DNA of 64,000 nucleotides, from NCBI RefSeq assembly GCF_016735515.1, contig NZ_JAERQZ010000001.1, positions 558,001 through 622,000 on the forward strand, given 5' to 3'. Under the pieces are notes generated by a model. That model saw nothing but the letters and a program-made list of their open reading frames with translations, was not told the origin of the DNA and did not search any database. Made by a program: the position numbers and the translations under genes. Below are positions 51,154-60,602 of the stretch, piece by piece; positions within the stretch are counted from its first letter, which is position 1, and every line of letters starts with the position of its first letter. This stretch comes from Piscinibacter sp. HJYY11 (GTDB taxonomy: Bacteria; Pseudomonadota; Gammaproteobacteria; Burkholderiales; Burkholderiaceae_C).

Positions 51154-51480
51154 TTAGTTACGACGGGAAGCGCCCTTGCCACTGCCGAATCGGCTTCTTG
51201 CTAACGCATGCTCGACCTGGCGCACCAAGGCGTGGCCTTCAATTTCTAGCGCGGCGGCCATCTTGAGGATGACGAACAGAGTCGGCTGGCTTTCGCCTCG
51301 TTCGATGCTGCCGCAATACGAACGCCCGACGTTGGCCATGTCTGCCAGAGTCTCCTGAGAAAGGCCTGCAGTCAAGCGCAGCTTGCGGATCACGTCGCCC
51401 ACGACGAAAGCGACGTCCGCGTCGAAGCTACCCGCGCCACGCGGCCTGCCAGTCTTCGGTTTTCCGACACGTGTGGACAT
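51154..51480 (-). CDS. Xre-family helix-turn-helix regulator (larger)
   Basis: A 108-residue DNA-binding protein: HTH about 28-82 with LRLTAGLSQETLADMANVGRSYCGSIERGES. Basic N- and C-terminal tails flank it. A TATATAAAGG sequence at 51519-51528 on the plus strand lies in its upstream region. Confidence 0.82.
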   Translation of the reverse strand: MSTRVGKPKTGRPRGAGSFDADVAFVVGDVIRKLRLTAGLSQETLADMANVGRSYCGSIERGESQPTLFVILKMAAALEIEGHALVRQVEHALARSRFGSGKGASRRN

Positions 51481-51543
51481 CCGCCGGAGAGTCCGGCATT
51501 AGCCCCGATTGATCCACGCTATATAAAGGTGGAGATCAGACGT

Positions 51544-51885
51544 CTATCGCCTGCGCCGGCGCTCCGAGGATGCGAGCTCCACCAGCGGCTTGGCGAGGGG
51601 CTCGGCAAACGGAAACCGGAGGACTGAGGCCAACACGGCCGAATCGCCGAGCCGCCGGTCGAGCTCGTTCATAAAGGTCGGGAAGTCGACCCCAAGCGCT
51701 GCCAGCCACTGACGCAACTGCAGAACATCCAGACGGCGTTCTCCCGATTCGACTCTGCTCACGGTCGCCTGATGCCGGCCGAGGAGATGCGCCAGATCCG
51801 ACTGGCGCAGCTGCACGGACTCCCGACTGTCGCGTAGCAGCGCCAGAAAGATCTCGTTGTGTCGGCTGTAGAGGGACTTGGGCAT
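51544..51885 (-). CDS. Xre-family helix-turn-helix regulator (smaller)
   Basis: A 113-residue protein: HTH about 24-75 with LRQSDLAHLLGRHQATVSRVESGERR. A short C-terminal segment ends in a run of Arg. It is divergent from the unknown gene at 51992, with 106 bp between starts, so it may repress that gene. ATG 51885 (MPKSLYSRHNEIF) is preferred; an upstream in-frame extension exists. Confidence 0.8.
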   Translation of the reverse strand: MPKSLYSRHNEIFLALLRDSRESVQLRQSDLAHLLGRHQATVSRVESGERRLDVLQLRQWLAALGVDFPTFMNELDRRLGDSAVLASVLRFPFAEPLAKPLVELASSERRRRR

Positions 51886-51991
51886 CAGGATGTTCCGCCG
51901 CCAGCCTATCCGTAGGCCGTCCATATGCCGAATGGGCATCTGGGACGCTAGAGACGACACTCTCTCCAGCCTATATATCGCAGGAGTTTTG

Positions 51992-52900
51992 ATGTTCGTG
52001 GCGCATGAGAGTTACGAGGATCCTCTGATGTCGGCGCTGGCCGGACAAGGCGAGCATTGCTTCCGCGCCTTGCACCTGTCGATCCGGGTGCCGTGGTTCA
52101 TCGTGACGTGCCTGGTCTCGGGTGACGACATCGACATGCAGCGCTCCGTCTGCTGCGCCTGGGATGTGGACCTGCGCGAACTGCTGAAGGTCGAGAAGAC
52201 GCGGCGGCCGGTGAGCCTGCAGCAGATGAACCCTTCTCACGAGGGCGATGGCCGATGGGAAGCGCTGCAGATCGAGCGCGTCTGGAAAGTCCAACATCCC
52301 GACGGGCACAGCGTGCTGGTGTTCCAGGACTTCGAAGGTACCGAGTTCACCAACACACTCGATGGGGACGCCGAAGACCGCCAGGGTGACCGCACGCTGG
52401 TCTTCGAGGCACACCCGCCGAAGCCGCGCGGCAAGAGGAAGTTCGCCAGGCCTGCGCCCAAGACCCAAGTGCCGGTGTTCTCGGGCGAGGCGGATCCGTT
52501 CTCACCAGTCAGCGCCTGGGATCTGGCGGTGCAACTCGGAACGTCGGTGGAGGACGTGCGGCGGCGGGCGGCCCAAGGGCAGCTCTTCACCGCCGGGCCC
52601 GTGGTGGGTGGTGAACCCCGCTATCCGCGCTACCAGGCGTTGCCGGTGCTCGCCGGAGGCAAGCTCGAGGCCCTGTTGGCCGTGCTCGCGCAGACCGATG
52701 GGCACCCACAGCTGTTCTTTGCGGGGGAATGCCCGGAACTGGGGCTCCTGTCGCCGGTCGAAGTGCTGCTCGGCGCCGCGGTCAAGCAGCGCGGGTTTGA
52801 GCCGGAAGCCAAGGTCATCCTGTCGTCCGACCCGACGAAGCGCTTCGAGCACGTGATGGAGGCCGCCCAGGCCTACGTGGCCGCCACGTCGGGCTGGTAG
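51992..52900 (+). CDS. Unknown protein divergent from an Xre regulator
   Basis: A 302-residue soluble protein preceded by CAGGAG at 51981-51986 and a TATATA stretch at 51972-51977. Recognisable features are few: a compact first ~100 residues, a Lys/Arg/Pro-rich linker (KPRGKRKFARPAPK, about 145-160), and a C-terminal domain of about 125 residues with an MerR/Xre-like helix (SAWDLAVQLGTSVEDVRRRAAQGQLF). I know no family. The next gene starts 3 nt later. Confidence 0.65.
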   Translation: MFVAHESYEDPLMSALAGQGEHCFRALHLSIRVPWFIVTCLVSGDDIDMQRSVCCAWDVDLRELLKVEKTRRPVSLQQMNPSHEGDGRWEALQIERVWKVQHPDGHSVLVFQDFEGTEFTNTLDGDAEDRQGDRTLVFEAHPPKPRGKRKFARPAPKTQVPVFSGEADPFSPVSAWDLAVQLGTSVEDVRRRAAQGQLFTAGPVVGGEPRYPRYQALPVLAGGKLEALLAVLAQTDGHPQLFFAGECPELGLLSPVEVLLGAAVKQRGFEPEAKVILSSDPTKRFEHVMEAAQAYVAATSGW

Positions 52901-53427: not shown

Positions 53428-53898
53428 CTATCGGTCGTGCCACCAAGCCGTCAGGCGAGACCAAAGGCCGCGGCGCGGTACTTCTGCCCCGCTTTCCTCA
53501 GGTTGTAGTGCCCGCATTTTGGGATCGCTCGACGCGAGCCGATCACCAAAGTGTGCCGCTTTCAATAGACGATCACGAGCCCGTCCAGCATCAATTAATT
53601 GCTGTGGCATATCGCCGCACCAATTGACTCGGTTGCGCTCGATCACGTAGTGGGCGCGGCAAGGAAAGCTCCAGTTTCCAACGGACGGCCAGAGGGAGAT
53701 CGATTCGCCGTTGAACGTCAGCTGCCAATCCGTGGGAGACAGCGGCGTCACCACTTCTCGGCCGCAGCCGCAAAGGCAGCGGTGCGCCGCCGTTGCATAC
53801 GTGGTCGAAACGTACAAAACGCCTTCTTGCAGCTTGTCAGGGATGAACTCGACAAACTCATGCGACACCATTCGCCTGCCAGTTGCTCGCTTGGTCAT
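53428..53898 (-). CDS. DUF6527 family protein
   Basis: A 156-residue protein with a zinc-ribbon-like pattern: HRCLCGCGREVVTPLS (C-x-C-G-C), then SFPCRAHYVI and VNWC. Arg/Gly/Trp-rich tail at the C-terminus. DUF6527 proteins occur next to ThiF-type E1 and multiubiquitin-domain genes; they may recognise or cleave the conjugate, which is not established here. Its ATG overlaps the ThiF stop by 4 nt, giving the third gene of a coupled operon. Confidence 0.8.
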   Translation of the reverse strand: MTKRATGRRMVSHEFVEFIPDKLQEGVLYVSTTYATAAHRCLCGCGREVVTPLSPTDWQLTFNGESISLWPSVGNWSFPCRAHYVIERNRVNWCGDMPQQLIDAGRARDRLLKAAHFGDRLASSDPKMRALQPEESGAEVPRRGLWSRLTAWWHDR

Positions 53899-55076
53899 GG
53901 CACGTCGTCCCCGGTGAGCAGGTTGCAATTGGTGCTGTACGTGCTGTCGTGCTCGTGCTCGAGATCCTGATAGAAGCCACAGAATTTTTTCCACCTGATC
54001 ACCGCGTAGGCAGCGGTCAAGGCGTTCAGGTCGGCGATCTGAATGTTGCGTTCGTAGTCACCGTCCTCGTCCGGTACCGCGAATGAAATACGGCGGGCGA
54101 CATGATCTTGCTTTGCCGGTGTGCTGGTGGTCACGCGGCAGATGGCCCACAGTTCCAGGCTGTCCTCGAGCATCTGCACACCCAAGCCAGTGTCGATGAA
54201 TGGCGTATTGGCGGCGTGAAGGGCATCGATGATGAGCTTCTTGGCCGGCCCGGTATCCATGCACAGAAACACAAAGTCGAAGCCCTGCAGCTGCGAGACA
54301 TTGTCTTCACCGATGTACTCGCGGTGCGCGTGAATTCCACGGCGCATCTGGGCGTAGTTCGCGCGGTGATAAGCCACCTTGCTGGGACGGTCCCGCAACT
54401 CCTCGATCGACGCGGCTCCGGGTGCTCGGAAAGCGTTGTGCTGCAGGAAGAGGTCACCGTCATAGAGATGGATCTCTTGAACCGGTGTTTTTGCCAACAG
54501 ATCAAGTAGGAACGAGCCTGTCCCACCCAGCCCGACGATGGCCACGCGCCGCATGGCAAGTTTGGCGGTGATCGCGCCGATCCCGGCTCGGGTGGAAGCG
54601 GTGTCCACGTAGTTGAAGACACCGTCGTCGGCCGCGGCCTCGATGACCTTGTAGGTGCGAGGCGTTACGTCAGTGCGAAGTGACATCGCCGGCGCACTGA
54701 TGATCTCGATGTAGCGCGTCATCTTCTCGTAGTAGTCCGCGTAGCCTTGTGGCGGCTTGTTGGAGAACGAATGCTGCGCAACCAGGTCGGCGGCCAGTGC
54801 CATGGTGTGGCTCTGGTGCTTGATCTGCAGGATTTCGCTGCCGTCGCGATTGCAGGGGTGCTCGCCGACGAACATCACGATGTGGCTGCCGGGACGACTC
54901 GTCACGTCACCCGCAAGGGTGAGTTCCGAAACCGCGCAGCCCAGGGCGATTTCGCCCCGCGCGTTGACATAGGGCACCGAGTGCACCAGCAGATGCCCTG
55001 ACCGAACATCTACCTCGTACCCATCGTTCTGCAGGCGCAGCAGATCAGGACTACGACTTATCAGTGCGCGCGACAT
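53895..55076 (-). CDS. ThiF-family E1-like adenylyltransferase with N-terminal DUF6791-like domain
   Basis: A 393-residue protein. Residues about 1-155 form a domain like DUF6791 (GSHIVMFVGEHPCNRDGSEI, KPPQGYADYYEKMTRYIEII), possibly E2-like. Residues about 165-390 are a ThiF/E1 fold: ATP motif VGLGGTGSFLLD, IHLYDGD, NAFR with the Arg finger, LCMD, and DTGLGVQ. Cys in LWAICRVTT is a candidate active-site residue. It should adenylate the C-terminus of the Ubl encoded upstream. The start overlaps the Ubl gene by 26 nt. Confidence 0.83.
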   Translation of the reverse strand: MSRALISRSPDLLRLQNDGYEVDVRSGHLLVHSVPYVNARGEIALGCAVSELTLAGDVTSRPGSHIVMFVGEHPCNRDGSEILQIKHQSHTMALAADLVAQHSFSNKPPQGYADYYEKMTRYIEIISAPAMSLRTDVTPRTYKVIEAAADDGVFNYVDTASTRAGIGAITAKLAMRRVAIVGLGGTGSFLLDLLAKTPVQEIHLYDGDLFLQHNAFRAPGAASIEELRDRPSKVAYHRANYAQMRRGIHAHREYIGEDNVSQLQGFDFVFLCMDTGPAKKLIIDALHAANTPFIDTGLGVQMLEDSLELWAICRVTTSTPAKQDHVARRISFAVPDEDGDYERNIQIADLNALTAAYAVIRWKKFCGFYQDLEHEHDSTYSTNCNLLTGDDVP

Positions 55077-55353
55077 TGAAGATCATCCCTTCTTTGACCT
55101 TGACGGTTTCACCTTCCACCAGCGTGCCTTCCGGCTTGTCGCCGTGGCCGCGCTTGAAAGTGATCGTGTAGATCGTCACCTCGTTGAACACCGCGTCATC
55201 GAATGCCAGGCGCACCACGTCCTGGAAGCTCAGCTCCTTGGCCGAGGTTTCCTTCTGGCGCCCGTTGACGATGATCTTGGTGGGCTTGGCAGGCGGATCG
55301 CCCTTTCCGTCGTGTCCGGGTTCGTCCCGGTCGGGAGTTGCAGCGTGCTGCAT
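55051..55353 (-). CDS. Ubiquitin-like (multiubiquitin-type, single domain) protein
   Basis: A 100-residue protein. After an acidic, Pro-rich N-terminal tail (1-25), residues about 26-95 form a beta-grasp domain of the multiubiquitin family: KIIVNGRQKETSAKELSFQDVV, YTITFKRGHG, and GMIFNVARTDKS at the end. Most relatives carry several copies; this has one. It ends in T-D-K-S rather than Gly-Gly, so any conjugation would use a non-canonical C-terminus. First gene of the E1/DUF6527 operon, divergent from the sigma-like gene at 55509. Confidence 0.82.
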   Translation of the reverse strand: MQHAATPDRDEPGHDGKGDPPAKPTKIIVNGRQKETSAKELSFQDVVRLAFDDAVFNEVTIYTITFKRGHGDKPEGTLVEGETVKVKEGMIFNVARTDKS

Positions 55354-55508
55354 GGATAATTTCCTTTACAGGTTCGCGTGCCTCCGGAAGTGGTGCCCGC
55401 TTACCAGGTAGGACTCCTGAGGCGCGCTCCGTGGATGCCGCCCAAAAAATATTTCCCGCCAGCGTCCACAGGGGGACGGCGGGGAGTCCAAGCGTGGGAG
55501 AGCAAAAA

Positions 55509-56099
55509 ATGACTTCGCCACCACCACCTGACGACTGCCTGAGCCCGGCCGAGGTCGACGCCGTGCTGCGGGCGCTGTCGCCGGCAGATTGGGAGCGGGC
55601 TCTTCGCCTGGCCCGGTTCCGCGCCAGCGGCTTGACCGACTGGACACCTGAATCCTTGCTTGCTGAGGCGCTGGCCAAGCTGCTTGCTGGCGAGCGGGTC
55701 TGGAAACGCGGCGTATCAGCGCTCCAGACGCTCAAGAACGTCCTGCACAGCCTGGCCAGCAATGACCGGAAGAAGCAAAAAGGTGCCCCGATCGATCGGT
55801 TTGCGACCGTCGACGTTGGTGCAGGCGAGGAGGACGGGGAAGACCGCGTTCCCGGCGTTGCTGCTGTAGACGATCGTTCTCCCGAGCGCATCATGGACGG
55901 CCGAAGCCAGCTGGCAGCCATTGAGAAGCTGGTAGCAGACGATGAGGACGCTCAGATGGTCCTCCTGGCCTGGTCAGAAGGAATTCGAGGCAAGGCGGCG
56001 GCCGACGACCTGGGCTTCGACCCAAAGCGCTACGACGCGGCAAGGCAGCGTCTCATGCGCAAGTTGGAGCCCATCGCGAATCTGAGGAAGAACAAATGA
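55509..56099 (+). CDS. RNA polymerase sigma-like DNA-binding protein
   Basis: A 196-residue protein. Residues about 10-80 resemble sigma region 2 (LSPADWERALRLARFRASGLTDWTPESLLAEALAKLLAGERVW), and the C-terminus resembles region 4 (DEDAQMVLLAWSEGIRGKAAADDLGFDPKRYDAARQRLMRKL). It may be a sigma factor or a sigma-derived regulator of the module. GGGAG precedes ATG 55509. Its last 4 nt overlap the next gene. Confidence 0.75.
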   Translation: MTSPPPPDDCLSPAEVDAVLRALSPADWERALRLARFRASGLTDWTPESLLAEALAKLLAGERVWKRGVSALQTLKNVLHSLASNDRKKQKGAPIDRFATVDVGAGEEDGEDRVPGVAAVDDRSPERIMDGRSQLAAIEKLVADDEDAQMVLLAWSEGIRGKAAADDLGFDPKRYDAARQRLMRKLEPIANLRKNK

Positions 56100-56515
56100 C
56101 TGCCACGCCCAAGCCCGATCCGATGGATGTTCTGATGGACACCTATCTCGCCGAACTCACAGAGATGAGCGACGAGGCCGTGCTCGATGGCAAGGATCCA
56201 GACTCGGTGCTGGCTGCCGGCGTGCAGCTACTGGACGGTGCACGTGCGGAAGCCGGTCGCCGTCGGTTGGCGGCAGCACGTCAGAAACTGCAAGCCAAGA
56301 CCGAAACGCCGAGTGGTGCCCAACTCGAATCCCATATCTCAGCGTTCGATGCTCGAGCTGCGCTGCGGCAGGCGGCTGCCACCAACGACGGTCGCTACAC
56401 CCTGGCTGCTCGCCAGCTGGATGAGATGGCGGATGAAGACGTGATCCGTGCCTACAGGCAGCTTCGGCGACTTGAATCAGAAGGCGACCCCGGCACCCCA
56501 GGTGCGGTTGAATGA
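56096..56515 (+). CDS. Small helical protein between sigma-like and ImmA/IrrE genes
   Basis: A 139-residue, mostly helical, Ala/Glu/Arg-rich protein without membrane segments. The pattern DVLMDTYLAELTEMSDEAVLDG at the start recurs in genes placed before ImmA/IrrE peptidases. It may be the substrate or partner of the peptidase. Overlaps both neighbours by 4 nt. Confidence 0.65.
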   Translation: MTATPKPDPMDVLMDTYLAELTEMSDEAVLDGKDPDSVLAAGVQLLDGARAEAGRRRLAAARQKLQAKTETPSGAQLESHISAFDARAALRQAAATNDGRYTLAARQLDEMADEDVIRAYRQLRRLESEGDPGTPGAVE

Positions 56516-57342
56516 CGCCGGGTCAGCGCGCCGAATCGCGCATTGCCAGTCTGGGAATCATCGATCCGCGCGATCTCGACGTGGACCTCATCGCCATGGA
56601 CGCCAACATGGAGGTGGTCTACGAACCGCTGAAGGGCTGCGAGGCAACGCTCATCGGTGTCGGCAATCGCGCAGTCGCTACCGTACGCCGCTCGTCGGTG
56701 CGTGGCCGAGAGCGGTTCTCTGTCGGCCACGAGCTGGGGCATTGGGACATGCATCGCGGCCGATCCTTTCGATGCCGCCTCGACGAGCCCGACCAAAACT
56801 GGGCGTCTGACGTCCACCTGGAGAAGGAGGCGGACATTTACGCCTCACACCTCTTGATGCCGTCTACGATGTTCAACCCGCGCGTCCAAGCGCTGGGTAG
56901 GCCGGGCTTTAGGGAAATCGAAGATCTGGCGGACGTCTTTGCTACCAGTGTGCTCGCCACCTGTATGCGGCTCGCCGACATCAACAAGCTGCCAGTGATT
57001 CTTGCGTGCTACAACGCGCAAGGAATTCGCCGGTGGCACAAGCCCGCGGCAGACATTCCACGTCGTTGGTGGCTTCGCAAGCAGATCGATGACGACAGTT
57101 TCGCCTTTGATCTCCTGCGCAACGGCAAGGCTCATCCGAGCGTTGGAAAGCAGCCTGCCGAAGTCTGGTTCGAGAACCTAGACGCAGACAGGTACGAGAT
57201 GTCCGAGTGCTGCATTGCCGGCCGCGACGGCGAAGTGGTGGTTCTGCTCTACCTTGGATCCTCCATGCTGGACGCAGGGTTCGATCCTGACGTTGGCCAT
57301 CGCACCTACAACGAGCACGGCTCCCGGTTCACCCCCCGGTAG
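56512..57342 (+). CDS. ImmA/IrrE-family metallopeptidase
   Basis: A 276-residue protein. The zinc-binding helix is GHELGHWDMH (H-E-x-x-H) at about residues 73-82, with the third ligand in EKEADIYASHLLMP. Members cleave repressors: ImmA in ICEBs1, IrrE against DdrO. A C-terminal extension of ~110 residues is unlike IrrE's GAF domain. Tail of a three-gene coupled operon divergent from the Ubl/E1/DUF6527 genes. Confidence 0.87.
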   Translation: MTPGQRAESRIASLGIIDPRDLDVDLIAMDANMEVVYEPLKGCEATLIGVGNRAVATVRRSSVRGRERFSVGHELGHWDMHRGRSFRCRLDEPDQNWASDVHLEKEADIYASHLLMPSTMFNPRVQALGRPGFREIEDLADVFATSVLATCMRLADINKLPVILACYNAQGIRRWHKPAADIPRRWWLRKQIDDDSFAFDLLRNGKAHPSVGKQPAEVWFENLDADRYEMSECCIAGRDGEVVVLLYLGSSMLDAGFDPDVGHRTYNEHGSRFTPR

Positions 57343-57497: not shown

Positions 57498-57533
57498 AGC
57501 TAGCTGCAAGCTTGCAGCTAGCTGATAGCTATC
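57498..57533. repeat. 26-bp perfect palindrome followed by GATAGCTATC
   Basis: 57498-57523 reads identically on both strands, centred on AAG|CTT and built from AGCTAGCTGC arms; the 10-bp palindrome GATAGCTATC (57524-57533) abuts it. Such a perfect long palindrome is rare by chance and suggests an operator or recombination site. Confidence 0.8.
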
Positions 57534-57534
57534 T

Positions 57535-57562
57535 GGTAGCCATCGGGTACCACACGGCTACC
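57535..57562. repeat. Inverted repeat GGTAGCC-N14-GGCTACC
   Basis: GGTAGCC at 57535-57541 and GGCTACC at 57556-57562, arms 7 bp, separated by 14 bp. It lies immediately before the likely tnpA promoter region. Confidence 0.6.
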
Positions 57563-57632: not shown

Positions 57633-60602
57633 ATGAGTTCTGTTGAAGAAACTGCCTACCCTCGCTTGCGCGAGGAGGTCTCCGCGGAAGAGTTGGAGCA
57701 GCTGTACACCCCAACCGCGAAAGAGCGACGCTTCGTGTCCGATGCGTACCGACGGGCGGCGCCGCAAGCGATGCTCATGCTGCAGATCAAGCTCGTGCAG
57801 CGGCTCGGTTACTCGGTCACCATGGGCGAAGTACCCATGCCCATCATCGTGCACGTGTGCCGCAAGCTAAGGGTTGCTCGACCCACGCGCGAGCAGCTTG
57901 ATCGCTATGACGAATCAGGCGAGAAGGGGCGGCACTTCCGGCAGGTGCTGGAATTTCTGAACTTGCGGCAATTGGATGCACCGGCGGAAGCCTGGCTTGC
58001 CGAGAGAGCGCTTGACGCTGCCCGGACCAAGCAGGAGCTGCCTGACATCATCAACGTCCTGCTGGAAGAACTGGTCAGCAAGGGCTACGTGCTGCCCGGC
58101 TTCACCTTCCTGGACAAGCTGGCCCGATCTTCTCGAGAAGCGGTGAACAGTGCCATCTACGAGCGCGTATTCCTTGCCCTGAAACCCGAGCTGCGCGGCC
58201 GCCTCGATAGCCTGCTGGTGTCCGACGGTGGCAAAACGGATTGGGATCGGCTGAAGAAGGAGCCCGGACGTCCCACCACGCGGGAAGTGGCCAGCTTTCT
58301 GCAGCACATCCACTGGCTGGCAGAGCTGGCCGACGGGCTGCCCAGCCTGTCTGACATTGCCGCCACCAAGCTCTCGCAGCTCACGCTGGAGGCGCGAGCC
58401 TTGGACGCACCCGACATGCGTGGCACACAGATCCGCAAGCGCTACACGCTGGCTGTCCTTCTCATTCAGTCGCAGCTGCGCAAGTCGACCGATGACGTCG
58501 CCGAGATGTTCATCAAGACGGTTCGCAAGCTCGACTCTGACGCCAACAAGCGGCTGCAGGCCTATCACCTAGATCAAGTGAAGCAGGTCGACCGCTTGGT
58601 CGGGCAACTGCGCGACATGCTGTCGGCGTATCAGACGGAGGACGAGAAGATCGACCGGCTGGCTGCCATCCAGGCCAGCCTCAAGGACCTGCCGCAGCGA
58701 CTCATCGAGGAATGCGATGAATACATGGCCTTCGCCGGCAACAACTACTTCCCGTTCATGCTGCCGCTGTACCGGACGAAGCGGGCCTTGCTCTTTGATT
58801 GCCTGGAGGTGATGCAGCCGCAGCCGACCTACAAGGATGGTGCTTTCGCGCTGTCGGTGACCTGGCTGCTCGCGCATCGCAACAGCCACAAGGAGTACCT
58901 CAGCAGCACCCTGGGTGACGCGGAGTTGGATCTCCGCTGGTTGCCGGAGAAGTGGCGCAAGCTGGTGGTGAGCAAAGACGAAGCAGGGCAACCCCGCGTG
59001 CACCGCAAGTTCCTTGAACTCAGCATCTTCGAGCGGGTGCAGGAGGAACTGCAGTCGGGCGACCTCTTTATCTCGGACAGTGACCAGTACGACGACTACC
59101 GCGAACACTTCGTCGACGATGAGACGCTCGAGCGGGAGTTGCCGGCCTATGCTGCGATGCTCGATATCCCGATCGATGGAGCAAGTTTCGTATCGGAACT
59201 CAAGTCGACTTTCGAAGGGCTGACGGAGGAGATCGACGAGGCCTTCCCCAAGAACAACTCTGTGGCCTGGGGACCGAATGGCCTGACCATTCGGAAGCCG
59301 GCGACCGACACACCGCCAGACGGGCTGGACGCTCTCGACTACGAGATCAATGAGCGGCTGGGCTTCCACAGTGTTCTCGACGTTCTGGTACAGACCGAGA
59401 AATGGCTCGACCTGCACAAGCTCTTTGGCCCGTTGTCGGGATACGAGTCGAAGATCGATGACCCGCGTGCGCGATGCGTCGCGACCTTGTTCTGCTATGG
59501 ATTCAATATGGGCGCGAGCCAAACGGCGAGAAGCCTCAAGGGCTTCAGCCGCAAGCAGATCGCCTGGCTCAATCTGCACAACATTACCGAAGAGCGGCTG
59601 GACAAGGCGATCGTGAAGACGGTCAACGCCTACAACCGGTTTGGGCTTCCCAAGTACTGGGGCACTGGCAAGACCGCTTCTGCAGACGGCACCAAGTGGA
59701 CGATGTACGAACAGAACCTGCTATCGGAGTACCACATCCGGTACGGTGGCTACGGCGGCATCGGCTACTACCATGTGTCTGACACCTACATCGCACTCTT
59801 CAGCCACTTCATTCCCTGTGGCGTCTATGAAGCGGTCTACATCCTCGACGGGTTGATCCGCAACGAGTCGGACATCAAGCCAGACACGTTGCATGGCGAC
59901 ACCCAGGCACAGAACACGCCAGTGTTTGGCTTGGCGCACTTGCTGGGCATCGACCTGATGCCTCGGATTCGCAACATCAAGGACCTGATCTTCTACCGGC
60001 CCAACCGCGAGGGCCGGTATCAGAACATTCAGCCACTCTTTGCAGGGCAATCGGTGGACTGGGAATTGATCGAGCGGCACTACGAGGACATGCTGCGCGT
60101 GGCCGTGTCGATCAAGGCCGGCAAGATCACGCCGTCAACGCTACTGCGGCGCCTGGGCAGTGCGAGCCGCAAGAACAAGCTGTACTTCGCCTTCAGAGAA
60201 CTTGGGCGTGCCCGGCGCACCATGTTCCTGCTGCGCTACATCAGCGATCCACAGCTGCGCAAAACCATCAATGCCGCCACCAACAAGAGCGAGGAGTTCA
60301 ACAACTTCGCGCAGTGGACATTCTTCGGCAATCAGGGAGTGATCGCCGAGAACGTGCGGCATGAGCAGCGCAAGGTGGTCAAGTACAACCACCTGGTCTC
60401 CAACATGCTGATCCTGAACAACGTGCACCGGATGTCAGGCGTGCTGGCGGAGCTGAAGAAGGAGGGGAGGCATCAGATCGATGAGAAAACGCTGGGAGCG
60501 TTGTCGCCGTACCGGAACATCCACCTGAACCGCTATGGCGACTACACGATGGATCTGCGGATGCCTGTCGAGCCAATGAACGTTAAGGTGAAGATCCTCT
60601 GA
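57633..60602 (+). CDS. tnpA: Tn3-family transposase
   Basis: A 989-residue transposase of full Tn3-family length. The N-terminal part is a DUF4158-like domain (about 1-165, starting near SAEELEQLYTPTAKE). The C-terminal DDE domain holds catalytic Asp in ASADGTKW, Asp in LLGIDLMPR and Glu in NKSEEFNNFAQW. It ends 50 nt before the right inverted repeat, as usual in this family. It should perform replicative transposition; the cointegrate is then resolved by TnpS/TnpT. Confidence 0.95.
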   Translation: MSSVEETAYPRLREEVSAEELEQLYTPTAKERRFVSDAYRRAAPQAMLMLQIKLVQRLGYSVTMGEVPMPIIVHVCRKLRVARPTREQLDRYDESGEKGRHFRQVLEFLNLRQLDAPAEAWLAERALDAARTKQELPDIINVLLEELVSKGYVLPGFTFLDKLARSSREAVNSAIYERVFLALKPELRGRLDSLLVSDGGKTDWDRLKKEPGRPTTREVASFLQHIHWLAELADGLPSLSDIAATKLSQLTLEARALDAPDMRGTQIRKRYTLAVLLIQSQLRKSTDDVAEMFIKTVRKLDSDANKRLQAYHLDQVKQVDRLVGQLRDMLSAYQTEDEKIDRLAAIQASLKDLPQRLIEECDEYMAFAGNNYFPFMLPLYRTKRALLFDCLEVMQPQPTYKDGAFALSVTWLLAHRNSHKEYLSSTLGDAELDLRWLPEKWRKLVVSKDEAGQPRVHRKFLELSIFERVQEELQSGDLFISDSDQYDDYREHFVDDETLERELPAYAAMLDIPIDGASFVSELKSTFEGLTEEIDEAFPKNNSVAWGPNGLTIRKPATDTPPDGLDALDYEINERLGFHSVLDVLVQTEKWLDLHKLFGPLSGYESKIDDPRARCVATLFCYGFNMGASQTARSLKGFSRKQIAWLNLHNITEERLDKAIVKTVNAYNRFGLPKYWGTGKTASADGTKWTMYEQNLLSEYHIRYGGYGGIGYYHVSDTYIALFSHFIPCGVYEAVYILDGLIRNESDIKPDTLHGDTQAQNTPVFGLAHLLGIDLMPRIRNIKDLIFYRPNREGRYQNIQPLFAGQSVDWELIERHYEDMLRVAVSIKAGKITPSTLLRRLGSASRKNKLYFAFRELGRARRTMFLLRYISDPQLRKTINAATNKSEEFNNFAQWTFFGNQGVIAENVRHEQRKVVKYNHLVSNMLILNNVHRMSGVLAELKKEGRHQIDEKTLGALSPYRNIHLNRYGDYTMDLRMPVEPMNVKVKIL

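Follow-up and report, generated by a model that had tools for sequence, protein, structure and literature searches.

A putative sigma factor-based controller of the CapP type beside a Bub-like ubiquitin-like operon in Piscinibacter

Introduction

What switches on a bacterial ubiquitin-like operon that diverges from genes for a sigma-like protein and a metallopeptidase? This question is raised by a locus of Piscinibacter sp. HJYY11, contained in a stretch of 64,000 nucleotides (contig NZ_JAERQZ010000001.1, positions 558,001 to 622,000; hereafter the window), in which six genes lie within 3.9 kb as two divergent three-gene operons separated by a gap of 155 bp. The minus-strand operon encodes a ubiquitin-like protein (Ubl), an E1-like enzyme and a DUF6527 protein, and the plus-strand operon a sigma-like protein, a small protein that we call B, and a peptidase of the CapP type. 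The initial annotation of this DNA had described both operons, and this description holds up well: the minus-strand frames overlap and are thus coupled, with Pfam matches for all three products, including a DUF6791 domain at the N-terminus of the E1, while the plus-strand genes are coupled by a 4-bp overlap at each junction and encode a sigma-like protein, a protein with a helical AlphaFold2 (AF2) model and a metallopeptidase with an HExxH motif.

We consider it likely that the plus-strand operon is a portable, sigma-based controller, in which CapP, once activated by single-stranded DNA (ssDNA), would free the sigma factor from B, and the sigma factor would then fire both divergent promoters. 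As far as can be read from sequence, this proposal starts from the gene content, a conserved cassette, the swapping of payloads, paired promoter-like arms and some similarity of B to the repressor CapH.

Conservation of the cassette

With the sigma-like protein as bait, we obtained no match in plasmids (tblastn), none in viral contigs, and matches at E ≤ 0.001 in 3 of 369 genomes of the class, including the genome itself and G237 (9.6e-4, with internal stops). Since these matches were so sparse, CapP was taken as bait. An alignment scan with one genome per species gave at least 289 CapP relatives, of which the best 80 loci were kept, and the sample therefore leans toward close relatives. In 72 of these best 80, a sigma-like gene, B and CapP follow one another in that order on one strand (L031 and L072 with a short sigma match only, L026 with a short CapP); the other eight begin at a contig end (L037, L040, L079) or are without a sigma match (L021, L042, L049, L064, L086). 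Adding L003, the window and eight plasmid loci to the 72 gives 82 cassettes, all of which carry HExxH, and in 67 of which an in-frame start of B, taken as the one nearest that position, overlaps the sigma stop by 4 bp. Among the 69 sigma proteins aligned, of 73 listed, Pfam matches at E ≤ 0.01 were found to Sigma70_r2 in 14, to Sigma70_r4_2 in 2 and to Sigma70_ECF in 2, and two relatives are annotated as sigma-70 family.

The full six-gene arrangement was found again in L015, L016, L025, L038, L052, L059, L062 and L172 (the last of which looks close to L016), a recurrence suggesting that the arrangement is more than chance. The association of the two operons to which the initial annotation had drawn attention thus recurs in several loci, but it is not obligatory. 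In 11 E1-centred loci (the window and ten others) the Ubl-E1-DUF6527 trio is always intact; beside it stand a sigma cassette in 2, a CapH-like XRE protein with CapP in 2 and a weak CapP alone in 1, and the remaining 6 have no sigma cassette, CapH-like XRE protein or CapP. Because the trio occurs mostly without the cassette, and the cassette beside many other payloads, the Ubl operon and the sigma cassette are separable modules. On a Cupriavidus plasmid (L123), CapH+CapP lies beside the trio, with a hypothetical gene and a DUF3892 gene in between, so that one payload can carry either controller.

Divergent promoters

The gap between the operons reads GGACTC-N15-TGGATGC, an AT-rich centre and GCGTCCA-N15-GAGTCC. 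Each of the two arms thus consists of a −35 and a −10 block, one arm mirrors the other, and the centre between them may possibly act as a shared UP element. Scored against a fixed consensus, the sigma-side arm reaches 12/12 and the Ubl-side arm 11/12, and none of 100 shuffles reaches either score. This consensus was derived from the window and its close, beta-proteobacterial relatives themselves and works only for such relatives, and consensus-free tests therefore followed.

Of 81 regions, 52 contain a mirrored two-block composite at p ≤ 0.05 (60 dinucleotide shuffles each); L016, with both arms good by consensus, and L018 and L025, with one clear arm each, fail this test. Pairing the arms solely on their −35 core retained 49 of 78 regions. 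Over offsets 20-26, the two arms agree at 85% within a locus, against 43% across loci and 31% in the spacer; six or more of 7 positions match between the arms in 39 of the 49 regions (0 of 49 in the spacer), and in 35 of the 49 the 7-base block that matches best begins at offset 18-21. The −10 element thus varies between loci and is shared within a locus, as expected if one sigma factor reads both arms. A relaxed arm test was passed by 42 of 78 regions and by 0.06% of mononucleotide shuffles. None of 13 cassette-free loci passes it, 11 being without a divergent core pair and two scoring 3 and 4 of 7, and the mirrored promoter was absent in all six CapH+CapP regions tested. Across the genome of the strain itself, the version of the pattern that has a 15-bp spacer occurs at the window's two arms only; two more matches have a 14-bp spacer, and a reversed-pattern control also gives two. 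From these samples L002 and L013 (repeats of other loci) were dropped before the consensus and mirror tests, and L066 and regions below 150 bases before the mirror test as well; L066 and L082 (near-duplicates) and L031 and L072 (short sigma matches) were dropped before the −35-core and relaxed tests.

One could also read the mirrored motif as an operator, with the sigma-like protein as a repressor that works without polymerase, and with CapP cleaving this protein or B and so derepressing both operons. The motif is, after all, a mirror repeat, the sigma-region matches are weak, and the named damage-responsive controllers, CapW, CapH+CapP and CapK+CapS, are all repressor systems (PMC13373217, which like PMC10904395 is cited here from excerpts). 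We nevertheless regard such a repressor as unlikely. Block spacing is near-constant within an arm while the inter-arm distance varies between 4 and 38 bp in the 49 regions (4-40 allowed), which fits two promoters better than one operator. Matches to sigma region 2 and to region 4 are both present in the family, and the −35 core lies at a median of 53.5 bp before the sigma start (46 regions measured), where a promoter is expected. The sigma and promoter logic appears well supported by these sequence patterns. As to the wider class, we lean, with more reserve than for the controller itself, towards an additional class of damage-responsive controllers of immune operons, in which ssDNA-activated CapP frees a private sigma factor and this factor co-evolves with its two mirrored promoters locus by locus. 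Each cassette would thus be an insulated activator, movable to any payload, such as Ubl conjugation, CBASS, DUF2188 or DUF3892 genes, and free of cross-talk.

Table 1. Features of the locus, in window coordinates
Feature	Coordinates	Strand	Evidence or detail
DUF6527 protein, 156 aa, third gene of the Ubl operon	53428..53898	-	PF20137 4.3e-24
E1-like enzyme, 393 aa, DUF6791 (residues 10-159) and ThiF	53895..55076	-	PF20590 3.8e-57, PF00899 3.1e-16
Ubl, one beta-grasp domain	55051..55353	-	PF14452 (Multi_ubiq) 9.8e-18
Predicted sigma-dependent promoter toward the Ubl operon	55411..55438	-	-35 GCATCCA, 15 bp, -10 GAGTCC (minus-strand reading)
AT-rich centre AAAAAATATTT between both -35 elements	55439..55461	.	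sequence
Predicted sigma-dependent promoter toward the sigma operon (autoregulation)	55462..55489	+	-35 GCGTCCA, 15 bp, -10 GAGTCC
ECF-like sigma protein, 196 aa	55509..56099	+	family Pfam matches; SigH model 0.013
Protein B (139 aa; all-helical by prediction), putative anti-sigma factor and putative CapP substrate	56096..56515	+	AF2; PADLOC capH
CapP-type IrrE metallopeptidase, 276 aa, HELGH	56512..57342	+	PADLOC capP 1.4e-58; PDB 7t5t CapP 6.4e-9

The start of the DUF6527 gene was taken as the ATG at 53898, which overlaps the E1 stop, and not as the GTG at 53994; that of the sigma gene was taken as the ATG at 55509, a longer open reading frame (ORF) of 253 aa from 55338 running into the Ubl gene.

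The ubiquitin-like operon

The Ubl matches the solved multi-ubiquitin protein 9cd2 (2.8e-13) and ends in ...RTDKS, without a di-glycine, the final Ser being present in 8 of 8 aligned sequences. The DUF6527 proteins conserve CxCGC and CxxHY (alignment of 8), which may form a zinc site. The AF2 model of the E1, made from 11 sequences, has a predicted local distance difference test (pLDDT) score of 84 and a predicted template modelling (pTM) score of 0.59; its best PDB fold match is Citrobacter BubCD (Foldseek 7.1e-12), followed by UBA5 and others, MccB, ThiF and MoeB included, and the 50 Foldseek matches listed are mostly E1-type proteins. His65 and Ser105 are invariant in 11 aligned E1s. NCBI names such genes multiubiquitin domain protein, ThiF family adenylyltransferase and DUF6527 family protein, and no paper on DUF6527 was found in the open-licence PubMed Central (PMC) literature. 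Full-length E1 is sporadic in distribution: at E ≤ 1e-40 it occurs, own genome included, in 4 of 60 relatives and in 8 of 398 genomes of the phylum, and in none of 10 other genomes of the genus. The E1 is matched by 123 of 72,556 plasmid records, and 108 of these matches cover 80% or more of the protein.

The closest known relatives of the operon are Bub pathways, reportedly described by Gong in 2025 and by Ye in 2026, with PDB entries 9ea4-9eav. These pathways reportedly feature oxyester chemistry and a serine protease. They share with the window a Multi_ubiq Ubl and a ThiF E1, as well as the DUF6527 partner of the Bub-type operons found here, but the window has neither a separate Prok-E2_E nor a Prok-JAB domain, and DUF6791 stands at the N-terminus of its E1 instead. 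The initial annotation had noted that no separate E2 or JAB gene is present, in agreement with our scan of ten proteins of the area, in which Prok-E2 and JAB were not found. Fuller Bub-type operons do occur under the same controller. That of L019 carries Multi_ubiq, Prok-E2_E, a Prok-JAB-ThiF fusion and DUF6527 in four genes, and that of L056 the same domains in three (Pfam); those of L024, L045, L054, L055, L065 and L067 resemble them by similarity. In L056, and by similarity also in L054 and L055, Ubl and E2 are fused into one protein.

Between the two operon types, the E1 domain of the window type aligns with the JAB-ThiF proteins (hhalign 8.5e-20) and DUF6527 with its counterpart in the fuller operons (hhalign 7.9e-17), whereas the N-terminal regions of the two E1 types, DUF6791 and Prok-JAB, did not align (hhalign). 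On this evidence the operon of the window resembles a Bub pathway in reduced form, lacking a JAB domain and a separate E2. The fused DUF6791 domain may supply the E2 role. In the AF2 model it forms a helix followed by four strands, a topology that presumably resembles the start of the ubiquitin-conjugating (UBC) fold; the profile comparison with Prok-E2_E is not decisive (hhalign P 0.027, probability 1.8%; reversed control P 0.32).

We infer that the window operon would conjugate its Ubl. It could alternatively encode a sulfur-transfer or peptide-modifying pair of E1 and carrier, like ThiF/ThiS or MccB, with no conjugation at all. The absence of a di-glycine from the Ubl and of a separate E2, and the appearance of MccB, ThiF and MoeB among the fold matches of the E1, would all suit such a pair. 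It seems doubtful to us, however, given that BubCD is the best fold match and that DUF6527 and Multi_ubiq are common to Bub-type operons bearing E2 and JAB under the same controller. The authors of PMC13373217 state that protection against phage has yet to be demonstrated for Bub operons, so that the payload may serve a wider stress response.

Protein B and known controllers

The AF2 model of B is helical (pLDDT 86, pTM 0.45), and no helix-turn-helix (HTH) domain is found by Pfam in the B of the window. In an alignment of 62 B proteins, of 73 listed (window, L015-L094), Arg106 is the sole invariant residue and lies in the segment LTLAARxG...SDxD...DLxELG; left out of this alignment were L055, L062, L066, L068, L073, L077, L082, L088, L089, L090 and L094. 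The PADLOC capH model matches 41 of the 62 at E ≤ 0.01, with a best E of 1.9e-8. The C-termini of CapH proteins that adjoin CapP read AFFRKYxxL...KxxIxxMI or similar, and two XRE proteins picked up by the capH model, L149 (no CapP found beside it) and L151 (weak CapP, 5.9e-5), carry LAARELSKLKPxDLERLL; in a profile alignment the most conserved segment of B falls in register with the C-termini of CapH, as does the L149/L151 motif. For this comparison 27 CapH tails were cut out, several in the wrong frame, and 16 were kept for the profile and the hidden Markov model (HMM), 27 of whose 124 matches are B (82 B among 10,538 ORFs). As B is encoded directly after the sigma gene, the simplest reading is that B is both the CapP substrate and the sigma inhibitor; in other words, B would be an anti-sigma factor that CapP cuts. 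One cassette (L081:1042-1933) has a tandem pair of B-type genes.

Reportedly, CapH+CapP was described by Lau in 2022 as a controller of CBASS (cyclic oligonucleotide-based antiphage signalling systems) and other immune operons. It shares with the window cassette the CapP peptidase, an adjacent divergent position in the loci seen, mixed payloads including Ubl and CBASS operons and, in part, the similarity of B to CapH; it has an HTH repressor, whereas the window cassette has an ECF-like (extracytoplasmic function) sigma gene, a helical B and paired sigma-type promoters. One could therefore suppose that the locus is simply the published CapH+CapP controller, B being a divergent CapH and the sigma-like gene incidental, and the clear CapP and the capH matches of B speak for this. 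In the excerpted part of PMC13373217, CapH+CapP occur beside Bub and CBASS, and 219 of 544 Bub operons have CapW or CapH+CapP; some sigma-B-CapP loci may be counted among these, or elsewhere, as CapH+CapP. True CapH proteins look different, however. In the two-gene CapH+CapP loci that we also found (L120, L122, L123, L124), each CapH carries an XRE HTH and aligns with almost the entire capH model, at 2e-22 to 4.6e-36, far from the best E among B proteins. With the sigma gene present in 72 of the best 80 of at least 289 CapP relatives, and the mirrored promoter absent beside CapH+CapP, we judge this explanation improbable. A capH search of whole genomes gave matches in 220 of 398, many of them probably generic XRE proteins.

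The other known systems compared share parts of the scheme. ECF sigma/anti-sigma pairs have a sigma factor and a putative inhibitor in one operon, an autoregulated promoter and proteolytic release, but they use membrane site-1/site-2 proteases where the window has a cytoplasmic IrrE-type peptidase; the strict promoter pattern, moreover, is confined to the two arms in the own genome. CapK+CapS likewise responds to damage and is found next to Bub, CBASS and a YegP-like gene; this controller consists of the kinase CapK and the STAS-wHTH repressor CapS, with no peptidase or sigma factor in the description excerpted (PMC13373217). The IrrE/PprI-DdrO pair of Deinococcus has an ssDNA-activated metallopeptidase and an Arg in the cleaved region that is needed for cleavage, but its target DdrO is a repressor of many damage-response genes (PMC10904395, as excerpted). 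No description of a sigma-B-CapP cassette was found in the open-licence PMC literature by titles and abstract starts, which is not proof of novelty. We regard the sigma-B-CapP cassette as a variant form of an established type of controller, joined here to a variant form of the Bub-like conjugation operons.

Proposed mechanism

In the unstressed cell, the ECF-like sigma factor would be held by its co-translated anti-sigma factor B. DNA damage or phage infection would produce ssDNA and thereby activate CapP, which is reported to be ssDNA-activated (excerpts of PMC13373217 and PMC10904395), as is PprI (PMC10904395). CapP would then cleave the C-terminal segment of B, at a site predicted to lie at or next to the invariant Arg106; the cleavage-loop Arg of DdrO is required for its cleavage by PprI with ssDNA, as the R118A result indicates (PMC10904395). 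The freed sigma factor, together with core polymerase, would transcribe from both mirror-image promoters, raising expression of the Ubl-E1-DUF6527 operon and of its own operon. The ThiF E1 would activate the Ubl for conjugation, in which the fused DUF6791 domain may serve as E2. That CapP cuts B, that ssDNA is the trigger and that the system acts against phage are proposals drawn from the literature on CapP and PprI. The initial annotation had suggested a switch that derepresses the conjugation operon upon damage or phage signals; a switch of this type fits, given the relationship to CapP, although it would work by activation of a dedicated promoter rather than by simple derepression.

A number of observations weigh against this proposal. 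The sigma protein of the window has no Pfam match, and support in its family is modest, with region 2 in the 14 of 69 members mentioned above and a PDB SigH profile match of 0.065. By the mirror test alone, the window reaches p 0.066 and L016 p 1.0. No −35 core pair is present in 29 of 78 regions, the window included, which fails because its left arm reads GCATCCA, and 36 of 78 regions do not pass the relaxed test, in which L172, although a genuine cassette, reaches 1 of 7 because its two spacers differ by one base. For B, no PDB fold match was obtained at E ≤ 0.001, and thus no known anti-sigma fold. The PADLOC capH match spans positions 27-102 of 103 in the window and 31-99 in L121, so that PADLOC alone does not place the similarity in the tail; outside PADLOC the similarity of B to CapH is weak (hhalign probability 4.6%, P 0.0088), and the best B match of the CapH-tail HMM has an E of 0.36.

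Payloads and significance

Pfam matches on 116 divergent-side proteins comprise Multi_ubiq 17, ThiF 15, SMODS (CBASS synthases) 11, Prok-E2_E 10, DUF2188 9, DUF6791 8, SAVED 5 and DUF3892 5. These counts are approximate, since payload genes were picked by a simple ORF rule, annotated or better ORFs were substituted manually for some of them, and a number of loci were omitted. Fuller Bub-type operons stand beside sigma-B-CapP in L019, L024, L045, L054-L056, L065 and L067.

If the proposal is correct, gating of a sigma factor by a protease would add an activator to the repressor-type controllers of immune operons, and −10 elements specific to each locus would provide numerous orthogonal sigma/promoter pairs. 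The trigger of the Ubl operon becomes directly testable by reporter. A portable cassette also marks its neighbours, such as the 314-aa genes of L018, L020, L022 and L023 and the lone DUF2188 and DUF3892 genes, as candidate immune effectors.

Several genes recur on the divergent side. A gene of 313-314 aa lies opposite the cassette in L018 (4918-5862), L020, L022 and L023, the L018 member having no Pfam match; it is a candidate for an uncharacterised immune effector. A very small DUF2188 protein comes first in L063 (scanned) and, by similarity, in L003, L032 and L080, and a very small DUF3892 protein in L026 (scanned), L007 (annotated) and L027; CapKS likewise adjoins a YegP-like gene (PMC13373217, as excerpted). 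The first divergent gene of L008 (3570-3848), L029, L036 and L051 encodes a protein of 92-108 aa (VIYAINYDL...), which in L008 precedes CBASS genes and there has no Pfam match. This L008 protein looks Cas2/SinR-like.

Genomic surroundings

The initial annotation had also placed the locus on a transposon, which could not be confirmed. A full-length Tn3-family tnpA (57633-60602) does begin 290 bp after capP, but a search for transposon ends, in which every 38-bp segment of the 120 bases that follow tnpA was compared with the region between 40.0 and 57.6 kb, gave no inverted match of at least 24/38. The gene is single-copy in its own genome at the DNA level, and within the flanks examined no close tnpA occurs at other cassette loci, apart from one 23% match at L075. 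That cassette and Ubl operon merely serve the stability or addiction of a Tn3-type element, with no role in defence or stress, is very improbable: the neighbouring tnpA and a G+C content of the locus below that of its flanks favour it, but the lack of ends in the stretch searched, the single copy, the occurrence of cassette and Ubl operon without tnpA within the flanks examined elsewhere (e.g. L015, L016), and relatives that adjoin CBASS and other operons all tell against it. Just outside the Ubl operon, at 51154-52900, lie two HTH genes and an ORF of 340 aa without a Pfam match, and between capP and tnpA overlapping AGCT-rich palindromes occupy 57499-57540.

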